A program made the translations under genes and the position numbers. Under the pieces are notes generated by a model. It did not search any database, was not told the origin of the DNA, and saw nothing but the letters and a program-made list of their open reading frames with translations. From Actinomycetota bacterium (lineage in GTDB: Bacteria > Actinomycetota > Acidimicrobiia > Acidimicrobiales > Iamiaceae), in assembly GCA_019639095.1 (NCBI GenBank), contig JAHBSN010000006.1, forward strand, positions 1 through 36,203: a stretch of DNA of 36,203 bases, written 5' to 3'. Of the stretch, positions 6,276 through 26,594 are shown piece by piece. Within the stretch, counting starts at the first letter, position 1, and the number at the start of each line of letters is the position of its first letter.

Positions 6276-6797
6276 TCACAGCAGCGACCCCACCCCGGCC
6301 TCGAGGTCGAGCAGGAGGCGCTTGCGGTCCATCCCGCCGGCGTAGCCGGTGAGCGTGCCGTCGGCGCCGATCACGCGGTGGCACGGGACCACGATGGCCA
6401 GCGGGTTGCGGCCGTTGGCGAGGCCCACGGCCCGGCTCGCGCCGGGTGAGCCGAGGTGCGCGGCCAGCTGGCCGTAGCTGCGGGTCTCGCCGTAGGGGAT
6501 CTCCAGCAGGGCCTGCCAGACCGACACCTGGAAGTCGGTGCCGGTGGGCGCGAGCACCAGGTCGAACTCGTGGCGGTCGCCGGCGAAGTACGCCTCGAGC
6601 TGGTCGGCCGCGGCCCGGAACGGCCCGGGATCCTCGGCGGCCGCACCCGACGCCACCGACGGCGGGGTTCCGTCGAACCAGATCGTGGTGAGGGCCTCGG
6701 GGTTGCCGGCGAGGGTCAGCGGTCCCACCGGGCTGGCCACCACGGTGAAGGCCGTGGTGGCCCGGAGCCGGTGGTCGGTCACGATCGTCGCTGCCAT
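6276..6797 (-). CDS. ogt: Methylated-DNA--protein-cysteine S-methyltransferase
   Basis: 173 residues from ATG 6797. The C-terminal DNA-binding domain is complete: the helix-turn-helix region ([21 protein letters not shown]), the Arg-finger region ([12 protein letters not shown]) and the active-site motif [10 protein letters not shown] with acceptor Cys139. The N-terminal ribonuclease-H-like domain is present. The protein removes O6-alkyl groups from guanine in a suicide reaction. Length and motif order match Ogt/MGMT; there is no Ada regulatory domain. The open frame continues upstream to 6926, but a TAGCGT -10 box lies seven bases before ATG 6797 and family homology begins there. It is divergent from the ABC exporter genes. 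Confidence 0.95.
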
Positions 6798-6804
6798 GGC
6801 CGTC

Positions 6805-6823
6805 ACGCTAGGACGGTCCGTCC
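6805..6823 (-). promoter_or_regulatory. ogt -10 box with adjacent GGACGG-T-CCGTCC palindrome
   Basis: On the minus strand TAGCGT (6810-6805) lies seven bases before the ogt ATG. Directly upstream, 6811-6823 is an inverted repeat with 6-base arms around one base, well placed to act as an operator between -10 and -35. The regulator is unknown. Confidence 0.4.
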
Positions 6824-6871
6824 CCACCGGCTGGCGGGAATCGGACCAGGCGACGGGGTGCGCGGTGGCCC

Positions 6872-6909
6872 ACCGGTGCACCGGTCGGGCGAGGTCTCGT
6901 GGGTACCGT
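6872..6909 (+). promoter_or_regulatory. Promoter region of the ABC exporter with palindrome
   Basis: A perfect 14-bp palindrome ACCGGTGCACCGGT (6872-6885) sits where the -35 region would be for a TACCGT -10 box at 6904-6909. The mRNA would then have a leader of about 25 bases, with GGAG at 6930-6933 as ribosome binding site before ATG 6941. This is one of the few genes here that looks leadered. Confidence 0.4.
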
Positions 6910-6940
6910 TGGGACCCGTCCGCCACCTCGGAGACCCACG

Positions 6941-7870
6941 ATGATCGAGGCTCGCAACCTCACCAAGCGCTACGGCTCCACGGTTGCGGTCGACGGCCTG
7001 AGCTTCAAGGTCGGCGACGGTCGCGTCACGGGGTTCCTCGGGCCGAACGGGTCGGGCAAGTCCACCACGATGCGCATGCTGCTGGCGCTCGACCGGCCCG
7101 ACCGCGGCGCGGTGCGGATCGACAACCAGAAGATGACGTCGTTCGCCCAGCCGATGCGCACGGTGGGCGCGCTCCTCGACGCGTCCTACGTCCACCCCAC
7201 CCGCAAGGCCCGGGAGCACCTGTGGGCGCTGGCGGTCTCGAACGGCCTGCCGAGGTCGAGGGTCGACCACGTGCTCGGCCTCGTGGGACTGTCCGACGTC
7301 GCGGGCAAGCGGGTGGGCGGGTTCTCGCTCGGCATGAAGCAGCGCCTCGGGCTGGCCGCCGCACTGCTCGGCGACCCGCGCAACCTCATCTTCGACGAGC
7401 CGGCCAACGGCCTCGACCCCGAGGGCATCTCGTGGATGCGCGACTTCCTGCGGGCCCTGGCCGCCGAGGGCCGCTCGATCTTCGTGTCGAGCCACCTGCT
7501 GTCGGAGATGGCCCTCATCGCCGAGGACCTCGTGGTGATCGGGCGCGGAAAGATGATCTTCCAAGGTCCGGTGCGGGAGTTCGTGGGGGCGGCCGCCCGG
7601 TCCTGGGTGACCGTGCGCAGCCCGCAGGTCGGCGCCATCGCCTCGGCGCTCGAGGCGTCGGGGGCCGAGGTCACCCGCTCCGCCGACGGCGGCATCGACG
7701 TGGTCGGCCCCAGCTCGATGGTCATCGGCGAGCTGGCCGCCCACCTCGGCGCCACGCTGCACGAGCTCAGCCCCCGCCAGGGCTCCCTGGAGGAGGCCTT
7801 CCTCCAGGTGACCGCCGAGGCCGTGGAGTACCAGGGCCAGCCCGAGCCCGACCACGGGGCCGGCTCGTGA
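6941..7870 (+). CDS. ABC transporter ATP-binding subunit (ABC-2 type exporter)
   Basis: 309 residues. Walker [10 protein letters not shown] (34-42), signature [12 protein letters not shown] (128-139) and Walker [14 protein letters not shown] (148-160) are all present in order, followed by the SSHLL switch region. The C-terminal extension (about 215-309) matches the CcmA/BcrA-type exporter ATPases, often seen with bacitracin, lantibiotic or daunorubicin-type efflux pumps. The product powers the membrane subunit encoded immediately downstream. The start is ATG 6941, with GGAG seven bases before it; an upstream GTG at 6899 lies within the promoter region and is less likely. The stop overlaps the next gene's start (GTGA at 7867-7870), indicating translational coupling. 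Confidence 0.94.
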
Positions 7871-15745: not shown

Positions 15746-15771
15746 GCGCAGAATCTGCGCAGATTCTGCGC
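15746..15771. repeat. 26-bp perfect palindrome, copy 1 of a dispersed family
   Basis: Reads the same on both strands over all 26 bases; the core is GAATCTGCGCAGATTC. It lies 51 bases upstream of the GH5 start. The first 21 bases recur exactly at 15944-15964, and a diverged copy occurs at 33095-33120. Confidence 0.85.
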
Positions 15772-15816
15772 GATGTGCGGTCGGTCCCGGTTCGTCCGGT
15801 TCTGCGGGCTGACCCG

Positions 15817-15943: not shown

Positions 15944-15964
15944 GCGCAGAATCTGCGCAGATTC
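15944..15964. repeat. GAATCTGCGCAGATTC palindrome, copy 2
   Basis: 21 bases identical to the first 21 bases of the palindrome at 15746. The 16-bp core 15949-15964 is a perfect palindrome. It lies 20 bases before the operator-like repeat of the acyl-CoA dehydrogenase gene. Confidence 0.85.
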
Positions 15965-15983
15965 GGTGCGACCCCGAGCACGA

Positions 15984-17345: not shown

Positions 17346-19043
17346 TCAGCGGGTGGGGTCGAGCGAGGCGAGGTAGCGGCGCCAGCCGCCGAACGACGTG
17401 ATGTCGGTGGCATCGGCGAGGCCGTGGGTCTCGCAGATGAAGCCCTTCACCCAGCGGCCGTCGGCCAGCTCCACCGAGCCGATGCCGAGCGGGGGCGCCA
17501 CCGCGGCGAGCACGCGACCGAGCCCGGCGGGGCTGATCGCCCACACCTCCACCTCGATCGCCCGGCCGCCCGAACCCACCCGCTCGAGCCCGGGCCGCGC
17601 CGGCGGGCCGCCCTCGAGGCGGTAGAGGCGGTACCGGGGCGACGTGGCGGTCACGGCCACGAGCTCGGCGCCCTGGTCGACGAGCTGGCCGTTGAGCGGT
17701 TGGCCGCGCAGGTGCGCGCCCACCACCGCGAGGTGGACGCGGTCGCCGGCCGCGGCCCACCCGGGCGCCAGCCGCTCGCCGTGGAGGTCGGCGGCCAGCG
17801 CGGCCACCGCACCGGAGGACGACGGCGGCGCCAGCACGGTCACGCCACCGGCGCCCGCCGGGGCCGGCACGGCGATGGCGGTGAGCCCGAGCAGGTTGGC
17901 GAAGGTGGTGTTGCGGCCGAGCCGGGCGTTGGCGCCCACCGGGTCGGCCGCCACCTCGGCCAGGGTGGGGAGCCACGGCACGGTGGGCACCACCATCGCG
18001 TCGACGCCCGACCACCACGACGCCAGGTCGGCGCGGATCTCGCCCAGGCGGCGCAGCGCGGCGAACACCTCGGTGCCGCGGTACGCCTCGCCACCGGCCA
18101 CCACCGTGGCCACCACCTCCACGAGGCCGTCGGGCCCGGCGGCGAGCACGTCGTGCAGGGCGGCGGTCCGGTCGGCGAGCCACGGGCCGCCGTAGAGGAG
18201 GTCGCCCGCCTCGTGGACGCGCGCCAGGTCGAGGGGGACGAGGTGGTGGCCGAGACCCTCCAGCTCGGCCCCCGCCTCCTCCGCGCCGGCGGCCACCGCC
18301 ACCGTGAACGGGCCGCTCGCCACCGGCCACGGCGCCGCGGCCAGCACCGACTCGACCGCCAGGCCGTCGGCCACCGACCGCGAGAACGTCGACACGCAGT
18401 CGATGCTCGGGCTGGCCGGCACCACGCCGTCGACCGGCCGGGAACCGGGCGCGCCCTTCAGGCCCACCACGCCGCACATGGCCGCGGGAACACGGCCCGA
18501 CCCCGCCGTGTCGGTGCCGAGCGCGAACGCCACCTCGCCGGTGGCCACCGCCACCGCCGAGCCCGACGACGACCCGCCCGGCACCAGGCCGGCGTCGAAG
18601 GGGTTGCGGGGCACGCCGTAGGGCGACCGGGTGCCCACGAGCCCCGTGGCGAGCTGGTCGAGGTTGGTCTTGCCGACGTAGAGGGCGCCGGCGTCGAGCA
18701 GCCGGCCCACCACGGTGGCGGTGGCCGTGGCGGTGCGGGCCAGGCCGGGAAGGCCGGCGGTGGTGACCCGGCCGGCGACGTCGATGTTGTCCTTCACGCC
18801 GAACGGCACCCCCCAGAGGGGCTGCCGATCCCGGTCGCCGGGCACGAGGGCCTTCGCCGCGGCGCGCAGCGCGGCGGCGGGCTCCACGTCGATCCACACG
18901 GCCGGGTCGTCGGACCGGTCGATGCGGGCCAGCACCTCGTCCACCACGGCCACGGGGTCGAGGCCCCGGCCGTAGGCGGCGCGCAGGCCCGCCACCCCGC
19001 CGTCGAGCGCGGCCGCCGCGCTCGGCGCCTCGGGGTCAGCCAT
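17346..19043 (-). CDS. atzF: Allophanate hydrolase
   Basis: 565 residues. An amidase-signature domain occupies about 20-430 with the Ser-cisSer-Lys triad visible: Lys84 in GVKDNID, Ser158 in PGGSSSGS and Ser182 in [13 protein letters not shown]-terminal allophanate hydrolase domain follows (about 440-560) with [20 protein letters not shown], which is specific to AtzF-type enzymes. The length fits AtzF (about 600). The enzyme hydrolyses allophanate; with decarboxylation, the products are ammonia and CO2. It overlaps the biuret hydrolase gene by eight bases (19036-19043) and is the last gene of the nine-gene operon, followed by a strong terminator. It is a stand-alone hydrolase, without the urea carboxylase partner, so allophanate must come from biuret or a similar compound. 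Confidence 0.93.
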
Positions 19044-19752
19044 CGACGGTCAGGCGGGCGTCGACCGCACCCAGGGCGTCGAGCAGGGCCCCCGACGGCG
19101 CCACGGCACCGAACACTCCGCCCTGCATGGTGACCATGTGGAGCGCGGCCTGGTAGTTGCCCACGTCGGTGGCGCCGGTGCAGTCCTCGAGCAGGAGGCA
19201 CTCGAAGCCCCGGTCGTTGGCCTCGCGCATCGTGGTGTGCACGCACACGTCGGTGGTGATGCCGGTGAAGATCAGGTGGGTGATGCCCTTCGTGCGCAGC
19301 ACGAGGTCGAGCTCGGTGGCGTAGAACGCGCCCTTGCCCGGCTTGTCGATCACCACCTCGCCGTCGATCGGGGCCACCTCGGGCACGATGTCCCAGCCCT
19401 CCTCGCCCCGCACCAGGATCCGGCCGCAGGGCCCGGCGTCGCCGATGCCGGCACCGATCTGCTGGGAGCGCCACAGCTTGTTCGGCGGGCAGTCCGACAG
19501 GTCGGGGAGGTGGCCCTCGCGGGTGTGCACCACCAGCATCCCCACCTCCCGGCAGGCGGCGAGCACCCGGGCGGTGGGCTCGAGCCCGGCCCGCGTCAGG
19601 TTGAGGTCGTAGCCCATGGCGTCGACGTAGCCGCCCGGCCCGCAGAAGTCGGTCTGCCAGTCGATGTTCACCAGGGCGGTGCGAGCCGGGTCGATCGACC
19701 CGTCGTAGGGCCAGGTGTAGGGCCGGGCCTCGATCGGTCCGAAGGTGGTCAT
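19036..19752 (-). CDS. biuH: Biuret amidohydrolase (isochorismatase-like cysteine hydrolase)
   Basis: 238 residues. From memory, the match to Rhizobium leguminosarum BiuH runs along the whole length. Shared blocks include [83 protein letters not shown] and MQGGVFGAV. The catalytic Asp31, Lys137 and Cys170 align with the BiuH triad (Asp36, Lys142, Cys175), and Gln210 aligns with the Gln215 linked to substrate recognition. Reaction: biuret plus water gives allophanate plus ammonia, in the cytoplasm. It lies directly upstream of atzF with an 8-base overlap, so product and next enzyme match. It begins one base after the stop of a degenerate paralogue. A related ureide amidohydrolase activity is the main alternative. 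Confidence 0.9.
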
Positions 19753-19753
19753 G

Positions 19754-20329
19754 TCAGGCCTCCTGGGCGGTGGGGGAAGGGGTGGGTCGATCGGTGGGTG
19801 CGACCGCGTCGAGCACGGCGGCCACGGTGCCGACGGCGCCGAAGATGCCGCCGGACATGGTCACGGTCTTGGCCGCCGCCGGGGCGAGGTCGGCCACGAG
19901 CGCGGTGCAGGCGTCGACCACGAGCAGGCACTCGTAGCCGCGGTCGTTGGCGGCGCGGAGGGTGGAGTGCACCGGGCCCTCGATGCCGTGTCCGGCCACG
20001 AGGAGGTGGGTGCGGCCCTCGGCGCGCAGCAGGTGGTCGAGCGGGCCGCCGAAGAACCCGTCGAGCCCGGCGGCGTTGGCCACCCGGTGCGGCACGGCCA
20101 GCGAGAGGTGCGCCGAGCCGTGGGCCACGGCCACCACCAGCCCGCCGTGGGCGGCCACGGCGGCCGCGAGCTGGAGGGTGCGCTGGGCCACCGGCGCGTC
20201 GGCGGTGGGTCCGGCCCGGCCCCGCCAGCCCTCGTCCCACCCGGCGAGCACGAGGGCGAGGTGGTGGCCGTGCAGGCGGCCGTCGTAGGGCCAGGCGTAG
20301 GGCTCGGTGCCCGCCACCCACCCGTTCAC
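19754..20329 (-). CDS. Catalytically degenerate BiuH paralogue (pseudoenzyme)
   Basis: 191 residues from GTG 20329. It retains BiuH framework blocks: EPYAWPYDG, then [21 protein letters not shown] and [13 protein letters not shown], each nearly matching its neighbour. Every catalytic position is lost. The Asp of DWQTDF is Gly30 (LAGWDEGW), the KPGKGAF lysine loop is replaced by an Ala/Gly stretch near 85-92, and the Cys of TTDVCVHTT is Pro119 (IEGPVHST). About 45 residues of the substrate-cap region (NKLWRSQQ to GWDIVPE) are deleted. The frame is intact, with GTGA overlap to the hydrolase upstream and one base to biuH, so it appears maintained and co-translated. I infer a non-catalytic partner or regulator of BiuH; recent decay is possible but the clean frame argues against it. 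Confidence 0.8.
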
Positions 20330-21078
20330 GAGCGGCCCCCCACCAGCGGGTGCCAGGCCTCGAGCACCGAGGCGAAGGCGTCGGGGGCATCGAGGTGGGC
20401 GGCGTTGCCGGCGCCGGGCACCTCCACCACGTCGACCCCCGCCAGGTTCTGAAGCACGGCCGCGGCCAGGCGACGCTCCACGGTGCTGCGGGCGCCGACG
20501 GTGGCGAGCACCGGCCGGTCGTGCAGGCGGCCGAGCTCCTCGGCGGTCGGGTCGAAGGCGGCGAACCGGGGGATCTCGGCCTGCCAGCGGGCCGCCTGGT
20601 CCCACGCCGCCGCCCGACCGTGGGGGCCGAGGGCCTCCCAGGTGTCGTCGCCCATCACGCTCCTCACCACGGTCATCGCTCCTTCGAGCCCGGTGGCGGC
20701 CAGGGCGGCCGCCTCGTGGAACCGGGCGTGGAGCCCGGCCGCGTGGCGGCCGAGCAGGGGTTCGTGCAGGACGAGGGCGCCGGCCGCCTCGGGATGGCGG
20801 ATGGCCAGGGCGAGGCCCACGGTGGCCCCGCCGCTCACGCCCACCACCAGGCCGCCGGCCAGGCCGCGGGCCACCAGGTCGTCGGCGAGCCGGTCGGCCT
20901 GGTCGACCACGTCCAGGGCCGTCCCGGCCGGGCCGAGCGGTCGTTCGACCGCGACCACCCGGTGGCGCCCTTCGAGGCGGGCGGCCAGTCGGTCGAACGA
21001 GGCCGGGCCGGCCCCGACGCCGTGCACGAGCACGACGACGGGGCCACGGCCTCGGTCCAGCAGGAGGACGGTGGGCAC
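20326..21078 (-). CDS. Alpha/beta-hydrolase of the biuret operon
   Basis: 250 residues from GTG 21078, five bases after the binding-protein gene. Features: VVVLVHGVGAGPASF oxyanion loop, AVERPLGPAG, nucleophile elbow GVSGGA (Ser82), and AGNAAHLDAPDAF with the probable catalytic His near 225. The Asp is not certain (perhaps in the AT-VGARS region, where an acid is not evident). It encodes a compact cytoplasmic serine hydrolase with a helical cap (about 115-190). No named family is recognised. Its stop overlaps the next start (GTGA), so it is co-expressed with the BiuH-like pair. It may open or deacylate a precursor that is converted to biuret or allophanate; this is inference from context only. 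Confidence 0.8.
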   Translation of the reverse strand: MPTVLLLDRGRGPVVVLVHGVGAGPASFDRLAARLEGRHRVVAVERPLGPAGTALDVVDQADRLADDLVARGLAGGLVVGVSGGATVGLALAIRHPEAAGALVLHEPLLGRHAAGLHARFHEAAALAATGLEGAMTVVRSVMGDDTWEALGPHGRAAAWDQAARWQAEIPRFAAFDPTAEELGRLHDRPVLATVGARSTVERRLAAAVLQNLAGVDVVEVPGAGNAAHLDAPDAFASVLEAWHPLVGGRS

Positions 21079-21083
21079 GGTGG

Positions 21084-22223
21084 TCAGCCGATCTTGCCGA
21101 CGACGCCCTTCACGAAGAAGTCCATCGTCTCGACCTCGGCGTAGGTGGGCTGCTCGCCCTCGGCGTAGACCTCCTTGCCGTCCTGGTCGAGGACGGGCCC
21201 CTCGAACGGCGAACCACCGTCGACGAAGCGCTGCTTGGCCTCGTCGATCTTGGCCTTGGTCTCGTCGTCCACCATGGAGCCGTAGGCCGACTGCACGAAC
21301 GGGTTGTCACCGGTCTGGAGACCCACCCGGAAGTCGCCGTTGTAGTCCGACTCGGCGAACTCGCCGGCCTTCACCGTCTCCACGATGTCGGTGTAGAGCG
21401 GGCCCCAGTTCCACTCGGAGCCCGTGATCCAGCCCTTGGGGGCGAGCTCGGAGGCGTCGGCGTGGTAGCCGACGGAGTAGGCGCCGGCCGCCTCGGTGGC
21501 CTCGATGATCGTCTTGGTGCAGTCCTGGTGCTGGGTGATGACGTCGACGTCCTGGTCGAGCAGCGTCTTCACCGCCTGCGACTGCACCGACGGATCGCAC
21601 CAGCTGCCGGTGGAGATCGTGGTCACGGTGGCCTTCGGGTTCACCGACTGGGCGCCCAGGGCGAAGGCGTTGATGTTGGCCAGCGTCTGGGGGATCGGGA
21701 AGGCGTAGACGTACCCGAGCTTGCCGGTCTCGCTGGTGGCCCCGGCGGCGATGCCGGCCAGGTACACCGGCTCGTACACGGTGCCGAAGTAGGTGCCCAC
21801 GTTGTCGAGCTGGTTGTCGCCCTCGAGGCCGCCCTGGTGCACGAAGATCACGTCGGGGTTCTTCTCGGCCACGTTCTGGGCGAACTCGAGGTGCCCGTAG
21901 CTCGTGGCGAAGATCACGTCGGCGCCCTTGTCGATCATGTTCTGCATGACCTGCTCGGACTCTGCGGTCTCGGGCACGTTCTCGGCCTGGAGCAGCTCGA
22001 CGTCGCCCACCGCCTCCTTCATGGCCAGGCTGCCCTCGTAGGCGGCCTGGTTGTACCCGAAGTCGTCCTTCGGGCCGACGTAGATGAAGCCCGCGGTGAA
22101 GGTGCCGTCGTCCTTGGCGCCGCCGCCGCCGTCGGAGGAGGACGCGGTGTCGCTGCCGCCGCAGCCGGCGGCCACGAGGGCGAGGCCGAGCGCGAGCGCA
22201 GCAGCACGGATGGATCGGGACAT
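21084..22223 (-). CDS. BMP/PnrA-family ABC transporter substrate-binding lipoprotein
   Basis: 379 residues from ATG 22223, with AAGGAG five bases upstream (22229-22234). A lipoprotein signal ends in LVAAGC (Cys21), followed by a Ser/Gly linker and a basic membrane protein/PnrA periplasmic-binding fold from about 40. FTAGFIYVGPKDDFGYNQ, FATSYGHLEFAQNVAEKNPDVIFVH, GYVYAFPIPQTLANINAFALGAQ and TQHQDCTKTIIEA are typical. The family delivers nucleosides, purines or related ureides to a two-permease transporter. It follows the second permease by 53 bases and shows the only strong ribosome binding site in the operon, fitting the higher expression usual for binding proteins. Given biuH and atzF downstream, I predict a biuret-like or N-rich heterocyclic ligand. 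Confidence 0.93.
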   Translation of the reverse strand: MSRSIRAAALALGLALVAAGCGGSDTASSSDGGGGAKDDGTFTAGFIYVGPKDDFGYNQAAYEGSLAMKEAVGDVELLQAENVPETAESEQVMQNMIDKGADVIFATSYGHLEFAQNVAEKNPDVIFVHQGGLEGDNQLDNVGTYFGTVYEPVYLAGIAAGATSETGKLGYVYAFPIPQTLANINAFALGAQSVNPKATVTTISTGSWCDPSVQSQAVKTLLDQDVDVITQHQDCTKTIIEATEAAGAYSVGYHADASELAPKGWITGSEWNWGPLYTDIVETVKAGEFAESDYNGDFRVGLQTGDNPFVQSAYGSMVDDETKAKIDEAKQRFVDGGSPFEGPVLDQDGKEVYAEGEQPTYAEVETMDFFVKGVVGKIG

Positions 22224-22276: not shown

Positions 22277-23176
22277 TCAGCCCTCGAAGACCTTCTCGAG
22301 GGCGGCGGGCCCGCCGTGGATGCGGCGCCGGCTGAGCAGGGCCAGGACCACGAGGACGGTGACGTAGGGCAGGGCCTCGAGCAGGTAGCGCGACAGCTCC
22401 CAGCCCCGCGCCTGCAGCTGGAGGTTCAGCGCGATGGCGCCGGCGAACAGGTAGGCGCCGCCGGCGAGCTTGATCGGTTGCCAGCCGGCGAAGATCACGA
22501 GGGCCACGGCCACGTAGCCCCGGCCCACCGTCATCTGCTCGGACCAGTTGAGGGTGGCGGCGGTGGCGAGCTGGGCCCCGCCGACACCAGCCAGCGCCCC
22601 GCCGGTGAGCAGGGCGACCCAGCGCACCCGACGGGCCGACGTGCCGTAGATCTCGAGGACCTCGGGCCCCTCGCCCGCGGCCCGCAGGACCAGGCCGGCC
22701 CGTGTCCGCCAGATCATCCACGTGAGGGCGGGCACGGCGAGGAACGACACGTAGGTGAGCGGGTCGTGCTGGAACAGGACCGGTCCGAGGAACGGCAGCT
22801 TCGAGAGCAGCGGGACGTCCCAGGTCTCGAGCGGCACCACCCCCTGGCCCACGTAGTCCTGGCCGAACAGGGCGGTGACGCCGATGCCGAGGAAGCTGAC
22901 CACGAGGCCGACGGCGATCTGGTTGGCGCCGCGGTGCAGGACGAGCACGGCGTGCACGCACGCCAGCACCGCACCGGCCACCAGGCCGGCGACGACCCCG
23001 ACCCAGGGGCTGCCGGTCTCGATGCCCACCGCGTAGGCGGCCAGGGCGCCGCAGAGCATGGACCCCTCGGTGCCGAGGTTGATGACCCCGGACCGCTCGG
23101 CCACGATCTCGCCGAGCCCGGCGAACACGATGCACGTGCCGCCGGCCACCGCACCGGTGAGGACGGCCTCGATCAT
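22277..23176 (-). CDS. ABC transporter permease 2 (nucleoside/BMP type)
   Basis: 299 residues from ATG 23176, whose ATGA overlaps the stop of the other permease (23173-23176). Eight or more hydrophobic segments are visible. SGVINLGTEGSMLCGALAAY (about 30-49) is the BPD_transp_2 signature shared with YufQ/RbsC-like permeases, and LRAAGEGPEVLEIYGTSARR is the cytoplasmic coupling loop. It is the smaller member of the permease pair and pairs with the 374-residue permease to form the channel. The frame extends further upstream over the partner gene, but the coupled ATG and the length typical of the family set the start. Confidence 0.92.
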   Translation of the reverse strand: MIEAVLTGAVAGGTCIVFAGLGEIVAERSGVINLGTEGSMLCGALAAYAVGIETGSPWVGVVAGLVAGAVLACVHAVLVLHRGANQIAVGLVVSFLGIGVTALFGQDYVGQGVVPLETWDVPLLSKLPFLGPVLFQHDPLTYVSFLAVPALTWMIWRTRAGLVLRAAGEGPEVLEIYGTSARRVRWVALLTGGALAGVGGAQLATAATLNWSEQMTVGRGYVAVALVIFAGWQPIKLAGGAYLFAGAIALNLQLQARGWELSRYLLEALPYVTVLVVLALLSRRRIHGGPAALEKVFEG

Positions 23177-24297
23177 CGGGCCGCCTCCGCCTTCCGACCG
23201 CCCCACCCGAGCACGGCGAGCAGCACCACCGCCATGAGGATGTTGACCGCCCCGCCCGAGAGGCCCGCGGTGATCTTCAGGCCGCTGCCGCCCACGGCGA
23301 TGGCGCCGAGCACCACCGCGGCGCCGATGCAGCGCAGCGGGTCGTGGCGGGCCAGCCACGAGGCGAGGAACCCGATGAACCCGTAGCCGGCGAGCAACTC
23401 GGGGCGCAGGCGCCCCTCGGTGCCGGCCACCTCGATCATGCCGCCCAGGCCGGCCATGGCCCCGCCCACCACCATGGCGGCGATCGACAGTCCGCCCACC
23501 GCCAGGCCGGCGCGGCGGGCGGCCGACGGGTTCCCGCCCAGCACCCGCAGCTTGAAGCCCCAGGTCGACCAGCGCAGCAGCGCCCACAGCACCAGCGCCG
23601 CCACGAGGCCCACGAAGATCCCGGCGTGCACCCGCTGGCCCCAGATGATGGGGAACCGCTCGGGGCCGGTGAGCTCGCGGGAGTAGGCCTGGCCCAGGCT
23701 CGCCGGGTCCTTCCAGGGCTCGAAGCACAGCCAGGTGACCACCAGGCCGGCGATGTAGTTGAGCAGCAGGCTCGAGATCGCCTCGTTGGTGCGGGTGGCC
23801 ACCTTGAGCACCGCCGGGATGGCCGCCCACAGCGCGCCGAGGGCGGCACCGCCGGCCGCCATCAGCACCAGGGTGGGCCACGTGCCGGCGCCACCGTCGA
23901 GCTGGTTCGCCACCAGGATGGCCCCGATGGCCCCCATCAGGAGCTGGCCCTCGCCGCCCAGGTTGAACAGCCCGGCGCGGGCGGGGACGGCGGCGGCCAG
24001 CGCCGCGAGCAGCAGCGGCGTGGCCCGGATGAAGGTCTCGCCGGCGCTGTCGGGCGTGCCGAGGGCCGTCTTCCACATCGACTCGAGGACCGACGCCGGG
24101 TCGGCGCCCTTGGCGAGCAGGAACGCCGAGAAGATGGCGACGGTGCTGGCGATCACCACCGCCCATCGCAGCGCGGTGCGCAGGTGGCGCTGCACCTGGG
24201 CGGCCGCCGTGGGCGCGACGTGGTGGTCATCGGCCTCGGGGCCGGGCGGCACCGGCGCCTCCGGCTCGACGTCGGACGTGGTCTCGAGCACGGTCAT
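23173..24297 (-). CDS. ABC transporter permease 1 (nucleoside/BMP type)
   Basis: 374 residues from ATG 24297, overlapping the ATPase stop by ATGA (24294-24297). A long cytoplasmic N-terminus (about 1-43) precedes eight to ten membrane segments. [20 protein letters not shown] is the permease signature, [20 protein letters not shown] follows, and [16 protein letters not shown] is the coupling motif. The architecture matches YufP-like permeases of BMP transporters. With the ATPase, second permease and lipoprotein it forms a complete importer. Confidence 0.92.
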
Positions 24298-25853
24298 GCC
24301 GCGGCCCCCTGGAGCATGAGGCGGCCGATGGCCTGCCGGTCGGTGGTGGCCGGGTCGACGATCCCGGCCAGGTGGCCGTCGTGGAGCACGAGGATCCGGT
24401 CCGCCAGGGCGAGGAGCTCGTCGAGGTCCTCCGAGACCATCAGCACCCCGGCGCCGGCGGCGCGGCGCTCGAGCAGCAGCTGCTGGGTGGCCCGCACCGA
24501 GGCGATGTCGAGCCCCCGGCTGGGGTAGGCGACCACGACCAGGCTGGGATCGTCGACGAGGAACGTGCGGGTGAGCACGACCCGCTGGATGTTGCCGCCC
24601 GACAGCGTGGCCACCTCGCGCCCGAGCGGCGCCAGGCTCAACCGGTCGGCCACGTCGGTGGCGGCCACGGCGCGGCGGACCGCCTTCCAGTCCACGCGGG
24701 GCCCCGACGTGGGCAGCGGGCGGCCGTTGAGGGCGAGGTGCTCGAAGATGGCGAGGCCGCCGACCACGGCGTCGTTCACCGGATCCTCGGGCACGATGAC
24801 CGCGCCCGCCCGCAGGGCCTTCTTGGGGTGGCCGCCCCGGCCGATGTCGTGCCCGGCGATGTGGATCTCGCCGCTCTCGAGGGGCAGGACGCCGAGCACG
24901 GCGTCGAGCAGCTCGCGCTGGCCGTTGCCGGACACGCCCGCCACCCCCACCAGCTCGCCCGGCTGCACCAGGAACGTGACGTCGTGCAGGCGGGCGTGCC
25001 CGTCGACGCTGCGTGCGCTCACCCCGTTGACCACGAGCGCCGGCTGGCCCTTGCGCGGCGGTTCGCGATCCGCCGGCAGCGGCGGCGGCACGCTGCCCAC
25101 CATGGTCTCCACCAGCTCGTCGTCGGTGAAGCCCGCGGGTCGGGCGCCCGAGATCACCATCTTCCCGCCGCGCAGCACCGTGAAGCGGTCGGCCACGGCC
25201 CGGGTCTCGGCCAGCTTGTGGGTGATCAGGGCGATGCCGAGGCCGTCGGCGCGGAGCCGGTCGATCACCGCCAGGAGGGCGTCGACCTCCTGCGGGGCCA
25301 GCGCGCTGGTGGGCTCGTCGAGGATCACGACCCGGGCGTCCATGAGGAGCACCCGCAGGATCTCCACCAGCTGGCGCTCGGCGATCGAGAGGTCCCGCAC
25401 CACCGCGTCGGGCGACACGGCGAGGCCGTAGCGCTCGGCTCCGTCGGCCACCCGGGCCCGGGCCGCAGAACGCCGGTAGCGGCCCTGGCCGCAGGCCAGC
25501 TCCACGTTCTCGGCCACCGTGAGGGCGGGCACCAGGCGCAGGTCCTGGAAGACCATGCCGATCCCCGCGGCGCGTGCGGCGGCGGGCGAGCCGAGCTCGA
25601 TGGGCTCGCCGTGCACCAGGACCTCGCCCTCCTGGGGCACGTTGACGCCGTAGAGGACCTTCATGAGGGTGCTCTTGCCGGCGCCGTTCTCGCCGAGCAG
25701 GGCGTGCACCTCGCCGGCGCGCAGCGAGAAGTCGACGGCGTCGTTGGCCACCAGGGACCCGAACCGCTGGGTGATGCCCCGGGCGTCGAGGATGGCCGGG
25801 GCCGACCCGTCGGCGCCGGTGGCGCCGGTGAGGTCGATGGTCGGCTCGCTCAC
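24294..25853 (-). CDS. ABC transporter ATPase with two nucleotide-binding domains
   Basis: 519 residues from GTG 25853, overlapping the regulator stop (GTGA). Domain 1 (about 22-260) has a full Walker [22 protein letters not shown] as signature and [13 protein letters not shown] as Walker B. Domain 2 (about 270-515) has [11 protein letters not shown] in place of Walker A, signature [11 protein letters not shown] and [13 protein letters not shown] in place of Walker B. This asymmetry, with a degenerate second site, is normal for the YufO/RbsA-type importers, so it is not damage. The protein powers import by the two downstream permeases. The N-terminal 20 residues are a variable extension. Confidence 0.94.
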
Positions 25854-26554
25854 CGGTCGCGCCGATCGAGCATGCGGGCGATGGTGTGGGCGGCCCGCTC
25901 CTCCACCACGTCGAGCGATTCGGCGAAGTGGCCGACGAGCCGTGCCTCCGCCAGGTCGACGTCGCCGTAGAGCAGCGCGTCGAGCACGCCCACGTGCTGT
26001 TCGATGGTGAGCTCCACCCGGCCGGCGCTCAGGAAGTCCTGCATCCGCACGATGCGGATCCGCTCGTTCACCTTGTGGAGCTGGTCGGTGAGCGACTGGT
26101 TGCCCGACGCCCCGGCCAGGCGCTCGTGGAAGTCCTCGTCGAGCAGCACGAAGTCGGTGAGCACCTCGTCGTCGTGGGCGGGGGCGTCGAGGTCGGCCCA
26201 GTCGGCGCGCAGGTGGCGGAGCTGCTCCTCGTCGTGCACGGGCTCGCCGTGGCGGTCGGTCCGGCGCAGGGCGCAGCGCTCGAGGGCGAAGCGGATCTCG
26301 TAGAGCTCGCGGACCAGGTGGAGGTTGATGAGCGTGGGCCCGAAGCCGCCGTCGGCCAGGCGCTCCACGAGCCCCTCGCTGTGCAGCCGCGAGAGCGCCT
26401 CGCGCACCGGGGTGCGGGACACGCCGAGCTGGGCGGCCAGCCGCTCCTCGCCGAGGCGCGCCCCGGGCGGGTACTCCCCCGCCAGCAGCCGGTGCTTCAA
26501 GCCCTGGTAGGCCAGGTCACGTCGGCTGCTGCCTGTATCCGAGGCTGTATACAC
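25850..26554 (-). CDS. GntR-family (FCD) transcriptional regulator
   Basis: 234 residues from GTG 26554. The N-terminal winged helix (about 13-72) contains [34 protein letters not shown], the GntR signature. The FCD effector domain (about 80-225) shows the metal/ligand residues in [12 protein letters not shown] and VGHFAES. It is the first gene of the operon and overlaps the ATPase by GTGA. I chose GTG 26554 because a TACGTT -10 box (26567-26562, minus strand) lies seven bases before it; an in-frame TTG at 26563 would start inside that box. Four GTAT(A/C)(C/G) sites flank the promoter, consistent with self-repression lifted by a pathway intermediate. Members of this subfamily usually respond to small carboxylates. 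Confidence 0.9.
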
Positions 26555-26594
26555 GCAGGTCAACGTACGGATGGGCCGTATCGAGGTCGTATCC
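26535..26594. promoter_or_regulatory. Promoter and operator cluster of the biuret operon
   Basis: Minus-strand -10 TACGTT at 26567-26562. Four similar sites surround it on the plus strand: GTATCC 26535, TGTATACA 26546-26553 (palindrome), GTATCG 26578 and GTATCC 26589. The first two and last two are 11-12 bases apart, about one helical turn. TGTATACA resembles known FCD-type GntR operators. The pirin gene promoter lies on the far side. Confidence 0.55.

Follow-up and report, generated by a model that had tools for sequence, protein, structure and literature searches.

In the 36,203-nucleotide stretch of Actinomycetota DNA analyzed here (contig JAHBSN010000006.1 of assembly GCA_019639095.1; hereafter, the window), the gene preceding that of biuret hydrolase (BiuH) encodes a BiuH paralogue that lacks the catalytic triad (the dead paralogue), and this protein belongs to a genuine pseudoenzyme family whose members very probably act as BiuH subunits. 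No description of such a BiuH partner was found in the CC-licensed literature searched. The subunit status of the dead paralogue is well supported, and BiuH is very probably its partner; heterodimerization, the face used, and the effect on substrate are what we infer. The reading favored here, held with some confidence, is that the paralogue would be conserved as the non-catalytic member of a complex with biuret hydrolase and would present an altered trans loop to BiuH. Considered separately, the chances that it acts through this loop are about even.

The genes are arranged on the minus strand in the order GntR regulator, ABC importer, α/β hydrolase, dead paralogue, BiuH, and allophanate hydrolase (Table 1), and the last two share 8 nt. 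The operon likely encodes a route from biuret through allophanate to ammonia because BiuH and allophanate hydrolase both score above their NCBIfam equivalog cut-offs. The genes examined here included no identifiable cyanuric acid hydrolase, which agrees with a published account of biuret use as largely unconnected to that enzyme (PMC7948467). The α/β-hydrolase-fold protein carries a GVSGGA motif resembling a nucleophile elbow and a late His. Elsewhere in the window, two 93%-identical palindromic copies (GCGCAGAATCTGCGCAGATTCTGCGC; 15746–15773 and 15944–15971) are located near the divergent starts of GH5 cellulase-like and acyl-CoA dehydrogenase genes, with a hairpin of 26-nt arms between them.

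Table 1. Features of the operon and of the dead paralogue (positions in the window).
Feature	Position	Strand	Basis or remark
GntR-type regulator, head of operon	25850..26563	-	position same in related loci
ABC ATPase, two nucleotide-binding halves	24294..25853	-	
ABC permease 1	23173..24297	-	
ABC permease 2	22277..23176	-	
BMP-type ABC substrate-binding lipoprotein	21084..22223	-	conserved upstream of dead paralogue; present in 50/52 loci
α/β-hydrolase-fold protein	20326..21078	-	only in part of related loci
Dead BiuH paralogue, 191 aa, proposed non-catalytic BiuH subunit	19754..20329	-	ORF, profile matches, AF2, Foldseek
Gly30 at catalytic Asp position (BiuH D31, RlBiuH D36)	20240..20242	-	alignment
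Ala86 at catalytic Lys position (BiuH K137, RlBiuH K142)	20072..20074	-	alignment
Pro119 at nucleophile Cys position (BiuH C170, RlBiuH C175)	19973..19975	-	alignment
Helix α4 of BiuH dimer face and next strand	19925..19966	-	second most conserved stretch
Trans loop MSGGIFGAV; Ser159 at RlBiuH Gln215, Ile162 at RlBiuH Val218	19832..19858	-	alignment
AGGAGG, ribosome-binding-like site for BiuH, inside 3′ end of dead gene	19759..19764	-	direct sequence read
BiuH, biuret hydrolase, triad D31/K137/C170 and Q210/V213 intact	19036..19752	-	NF050097, 415.7 bits (cut-off 370)
Allophanate hydrolase, AtzF-like amidase and AH_C domain	17346..19043	-	TIGR02713, 548.8 bits (cut-off 511); PF21986

The dead-paralogue frame runs uninterrupted from a GTG start to a TGA stop; translation might alternatively begin at a second GTG four codons further on (20317). 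Its third-position GC content is 0.97, the same as that of BiuH. The encoded protein is 31% identical to BiuH (E = 1e-23), and matches the Pfam Isochorismatase family (PF00857; 52.2 bits, cut-off 27). With the NCBIfam model for BiuH (NF050097) it reaches 88.6 bits, below the cut-off of 370. The stop codon of the upstream α/β-hydrolase gene and the GTG start overlap as GTGA, and the ATG of BiuH lies 1 nt past the dead-paralogue stop. A sequence-only reading had proposed a BiuH paralogue with an intact frame and translational coupling on both sides, and both proposals are borne out. The same reading placed Gly30 and Pro119 at the positions of the catalytic Asp and Cys, correctly according to the alignment to BiuH. 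It also described the Lys loop as lost: the Lys is indeed replaced, by Ala86, but the loop is present, and NAAGLDGFF of the paralogue aligns with DKPGKGAFY of BiuH. Substrate-binding Lys145 is replaced by Leu89. The cap, from which about 45 residues had been described as deleted, is shortened; the 47 residues by which the paralogue falls short of BiuH are mostly the insert between strands 2 and 3.

These losses extend across the family. Among 50 full-length members, the triad is lost completely in 43, and a single residue of it survives in seven (six Cys and one Asp, the latter alignment-dependent); no member retains more than that. The catalytic Lys position is Ala in 37/50 and Lys in 0/50, and the nucleophile position is occupied by Pro (15), Thr (11), Gly (9), Cys (6), and others. 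Aligned cis active-site columns are identical to BiuH in 3% of cases. The fold is predicted with confidence: an AF2 model based on 49 family members reached a pLDDT of 94.3 and a pTM of 0.89 with a BiuH-like fold, and the best Foldseek matches were BiuH (6azq/6azn, TM 0.79–0.82), followed by TrtA and RutB. According to the Pfam match and this model, the dead paralogue is a protein of the cysteine hydrolase/isochorismatase fold. It is nevertheless very improbable that the protein is catalytically active through a remodeled active site of another kind. The intact AF2 fold, the conserved polar residues E117, D129, E133, and D139, and the Cys at the nucleophile position of six members would suit such an enzyme; however, except for E117 (Asp in BiuH), the conserved polar residues are common to BiuH outside the catalytic set, the pocket-lining positions vary freely, and the cap is missing.

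Loci were collected from two sources. In a sample of the order, 397 genomes were searched and 31 had BiuH-type matches; the paralogue is present in 26 of these 31, and BiuH is found alone in five. A scan of a genome collection added Cellulomonas, Demequina, Nocardioides, Microbacterium, Microbispora, Acrocarpospora, Jatrophihabitans, and many Acidimicrobiia. Altogether, the proposed survey of biuH loci for an adjacent short paralogue yielded 52 non-redundant loci, 50 of them full length, from Acidimicrobiia and other actinobacterial genera. The paralogue is uncommon overall, since it occurs in 3/396 genomes of an evenly drawn phylum sample. A plasmid search returned no record matching at least 80% of the query; the matches listed were BiuH-like enzymes aligned to the second half of the query only. 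Three loci (L033, L035, and L080; family f40 and kin) have the BMP protein, BiuH, and allophanate hydrolase without the paralogue, which was probably lost in these lineages, as their BiuH nests among partner-bearing BiuHs.

Although the median identity between pairs of paralogues is 0.43, every one of the 52 loci has an intact gene, and no broken or decayed copy was seen among them. In ten pairs, dN/dS is about 0.22–0.55 for the dead paralogue and 0.04–0.24 for BiuH, as rough values obtained by NG86 at high GC and partial saturation, with YN00 usable for the one unsaturated pair. The selection suspected from the sequence is thus supported by dN/dS and by conservation over 52 loci, and the decay or frameshifts at related loci that would indicate the opposite were not encountered. 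A decaying duplicate, kept only through polar effects on BiuH translation, would account for evolution about 2–5 times faster than that of BiuH and for the ribosome-binding-like site of BiuH inside the 3′ end of the dead gene. However, intactness at all 52 loci despite such divergence, dN/dS well under 1, invariant motifs, the confident fold, and four gene fusions leave it scarcely credible and, for practical purposes, refuted. A pseudogene or chance ORF was likewise rejected on the basis of conservation, dN/dS, and fusions.

BiuH is the next gene downstream in 51/51 dead-paralogue loci with a continuing contig, and at the junction a TGA stop usually abuts or overlaps the BiuH start. BiuH is therefore the constant partner, because the other neighbors vary: several Cellulomonas loci lack allophanate hydrolase in the flank that was fetched, and less than half of all loci carry the α/β hydrolase. 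Furthermore, dead paralogue, linker, and BiuH form a single open frame in four loci (L050, L057, L065, which is 5′-truncated, and L067), all from metagenome-assembled genomes only; the linkers are 42–53 residues long and the BiuH triad of the fusions is intact. They represent one to three fusion events, a number that is unsure because an unfused relative groups with two fusions in the tree. At another locus (L012, 2086–2664), about 90 internal residues are missing from the BiuH that accompanies the dead paralogue, through an assembly error or a real second degeneration. The AF2 model of the L050 fusion has a pTM of 0.76, with disorder mainly in the linker, whereas a simple calculation gives roughly 0.43–0.55 for freely oriented domains; hence, the two domains are predicted to dock. 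The alignment for this model consisted of the fusions, three rows read through the in-frame TGA, and BiuH rows, and replaced a mixed alignment of separate dead and BiuH rows that had placed all dead rows on the BiuH half. The docking may be a recall of the BiuH homodimer; the BiuH structures were released in February 2018 and may be in the AF2 training set. In summary, the 52 loci, strict adjacency, purifying selection, four fusions, and confident fold favor the selected non-catalytic BiuH partner that the sequence-only reading had envisaged.

The strongest clue, passed over in the sequence-only reading, is a loop known from the structures of RlBiuH, in which a tight dimer interface of over 1800 Å2 is built by helices α2, α4, and α5, and Gln215 on this loop of the neighboring monomer reaches into the active site, where it binds biuret at its distal amide (PMC5806882). 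Gln215 and Val218 gate the main tunnel, and the Gln215Ala mutation reduces kcat/KM from about 150,000 to 357, about 400-fold (PMC5806882). In triuret hydrolase (TrtA), the second subunit likewise supplies the equivalent residue, Gln202, in trans; this Gln is kept further out by Ile205, which takes the place of Val218 (PMC7948467). The corresponding loop, MSGGIFGAV, is the most conserved 9-column window of the dead family (mean 0.96), and position 215 is Ser in 50/50 and position 218 Ile in 50/50 members. Next in conservation is ANDRGYECL, the end of helix α4 and the following strand; helix α5 is of average conservation and the aligned α2 positions are poorly conserved. The adjacent BiuHs, fusions included, keep their own Gln215 and Val218 in 49/49 cases, and their active-site pocket is unchanged in 49/49. 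As the loop is fixed beside a randomized pocket of its own and the BiuH pocket is unchanged, the simplest explanation of the pattern is that the pocket served by the loop belongs to another protein, although SGGIFGA could be conserved for folding alone. A comparison of partnered and unpartnered BiuHs over about 224 columns revealed strong differences at only two (positions 93 and 200), both in dimer-face helices. These switches (L93 and Y200) were considered as proof of a heterodimer and rejected, since the differences are confounded with ancestry: the label follows the tree and a test on phylogenetically independent pairs is not significant.

The following mechanism is proposed. The dead paralogue would keep the cysteine-hydrolase fold, helix α4, and the trans loop while dispensing with its own catalytic and substrate-binding residues and its cap, and most likely would use the BiuH dimer face to pair with the BiuH encoded directly downstream. 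Ser and Ile would then be offered to the working active site of BiuH in place of Gln215 and Val218, and the distal end of the substrate would be held differently, with altered specificity, affinity, or regulation. Pairing exclusively as a heterodimer is unlikely, unless something else holds Gln215 and Val218 in BiuH, because a BiuH Gln215 that faced a degenerate pocket should drift; it is probable that BiuH forms homodimers as well or that the dead subunit attaches at another site. A distinctly less probable alternative is a scaffold or stability subunit, in which dead:dead and BiuH:BiuH homodimers are stacked in a mixed tetramer via the smaller dimer–dimer face, so that the dead half stabilizes or localizes BiuH and the Ser loop stays outside every working active site. 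The RlBiuH tetramer has a second interface, of about 700 Å2 (PMC5806882); the mixed arrangement fits with the fusions and the docking, and it accounts for the retention of Gln215 and Val218 by BiuH. However, the pocket of a dead:dead dimer is randomized, and fixation of Ser and Ile in 50/50 members, along with their presence in triad-intact relatives, is left unexplained. An inhibitory or regulatory competitor, which would swap into BiuH dimers and lower or switch activity, for example by halting biuret hydrolysis while another substrate is present, is improbable. The effect of Gln215Ala implies that the Ser loop alone could damp biuret turnover, but tight coupling and natural 1:1 fusions speak against a dose-dependent inhibitor.

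Two relatives outside Actinomycetota bear on the origin of the loop, and in both a gene with MSGGIFGA directly precedes a normal-looking BiuH with the Gln loop. In Rokubacteria (L081, 5920–6627; partly masked with N), the first gene has an intact triad. In Candidatus Manganitrophus (L070, 5923–6684), it keeps Asp and Lys, the Cys is replaced by Ala, and the cap is partly shortened; in this complete genome, the BiuH that follows (6546–7368) is broken up across three frames, perhaps owing to sequencing errors. The dead family forms one group in the tree (SH-aLRT 96), and the two first genes are placed, unsurely on account of long branches, at the base of the BiuH/TrtA side next to the dead-family branch; in a BiuH-only tree, the two loci fall among non-actinobacterial BiuHs. 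Searches of the phyla of these two loci, first by exact DNA pattern alone and then by a search read above the level of single residues, gave no clear further Ser-loop relatives. Since the rokubacterial relative combines the Ser/Ile loop with an intact triad, the loop switch apparently preceded the loss of catalysis, and the simplest series would be loop switch, loss of Cys, and loss of the remaining triad and cap. A fuller reading is also tenable, at slightly less than an even chance: BiuH of these actinobacteria would be a heteromer in which the Ser/Ile pseudo-subunit is a dedicated trans-loop donor, its substrate would be other than or in addition to biuret, and the Rokubacteria and Nitrospirota relatives would preserve intermediate steps. 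If this were true, the biuret enzyme of many actinobacteria would be a heteromer whose substrate could be misassigned. The loci also provide an evolutionary series, of new loop with triad, loss of Cys, loss of triad and cap, and fusion, along which the origin of a pseudoenzyme subunit could be followed.

Biuret and triuret hydrolases have been described as homo-oligomers in which a glutamine of an identical neighbor finishes the active site. The dead paralogue resembles BiuH (RlBiuH, PDB 6AZO/6AZQ; Rhodococcus sp. Mel, 6XJM; NF050097) in fold, family, and operon and shares with it the N-terminal PYxWPYDG, the helix α4 motif, and the trans loop; it differs in the absence of the triad, substrate-binding Lys145, and Phe41, in the shortened cap, and in the Gln215-to-Ser and Val218-to-Ile replacements in trans. 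TrtA (PDB 6XIX/6XJE) is likewise a BiuH paralogue often encoded beside biuH, with an active site completed in trans and Ile at the Val218 position. However, TrtA is active, about 50% identical to BiuH, and keeps the full triad and trans Gln202, and the dead paralogue has neither of these hallmarks. AtzG is a small non-catalytic protein whose gene immediately precedes that of AtzE, an amidohydrolase of the same pathway that requires it (PMC6219798). The comparison with AtzG, which had been drawn in the sequence-only reading, stands as a functional analogy only and not as a relationship in fold: AtzG is GatC-like and has no kinship with AtzE (PMC6219798), whereas the dead paralogue shares the cysteine-hydrolase fold of BiuH. 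Presumed pairing of a dead paralogue with its active counterpart is also a feature of prozymes, such as the trypanosome AdoMetDC prozyme (PMC5201418). Although these proteins are eukaryotic, belong to another enzyme family, and have a demonstrated activating effect, the dead paralogue is, in the manner of a prozyme, conserved together with its partner, in 52 loci and with BiuH adjacent in 51/51.
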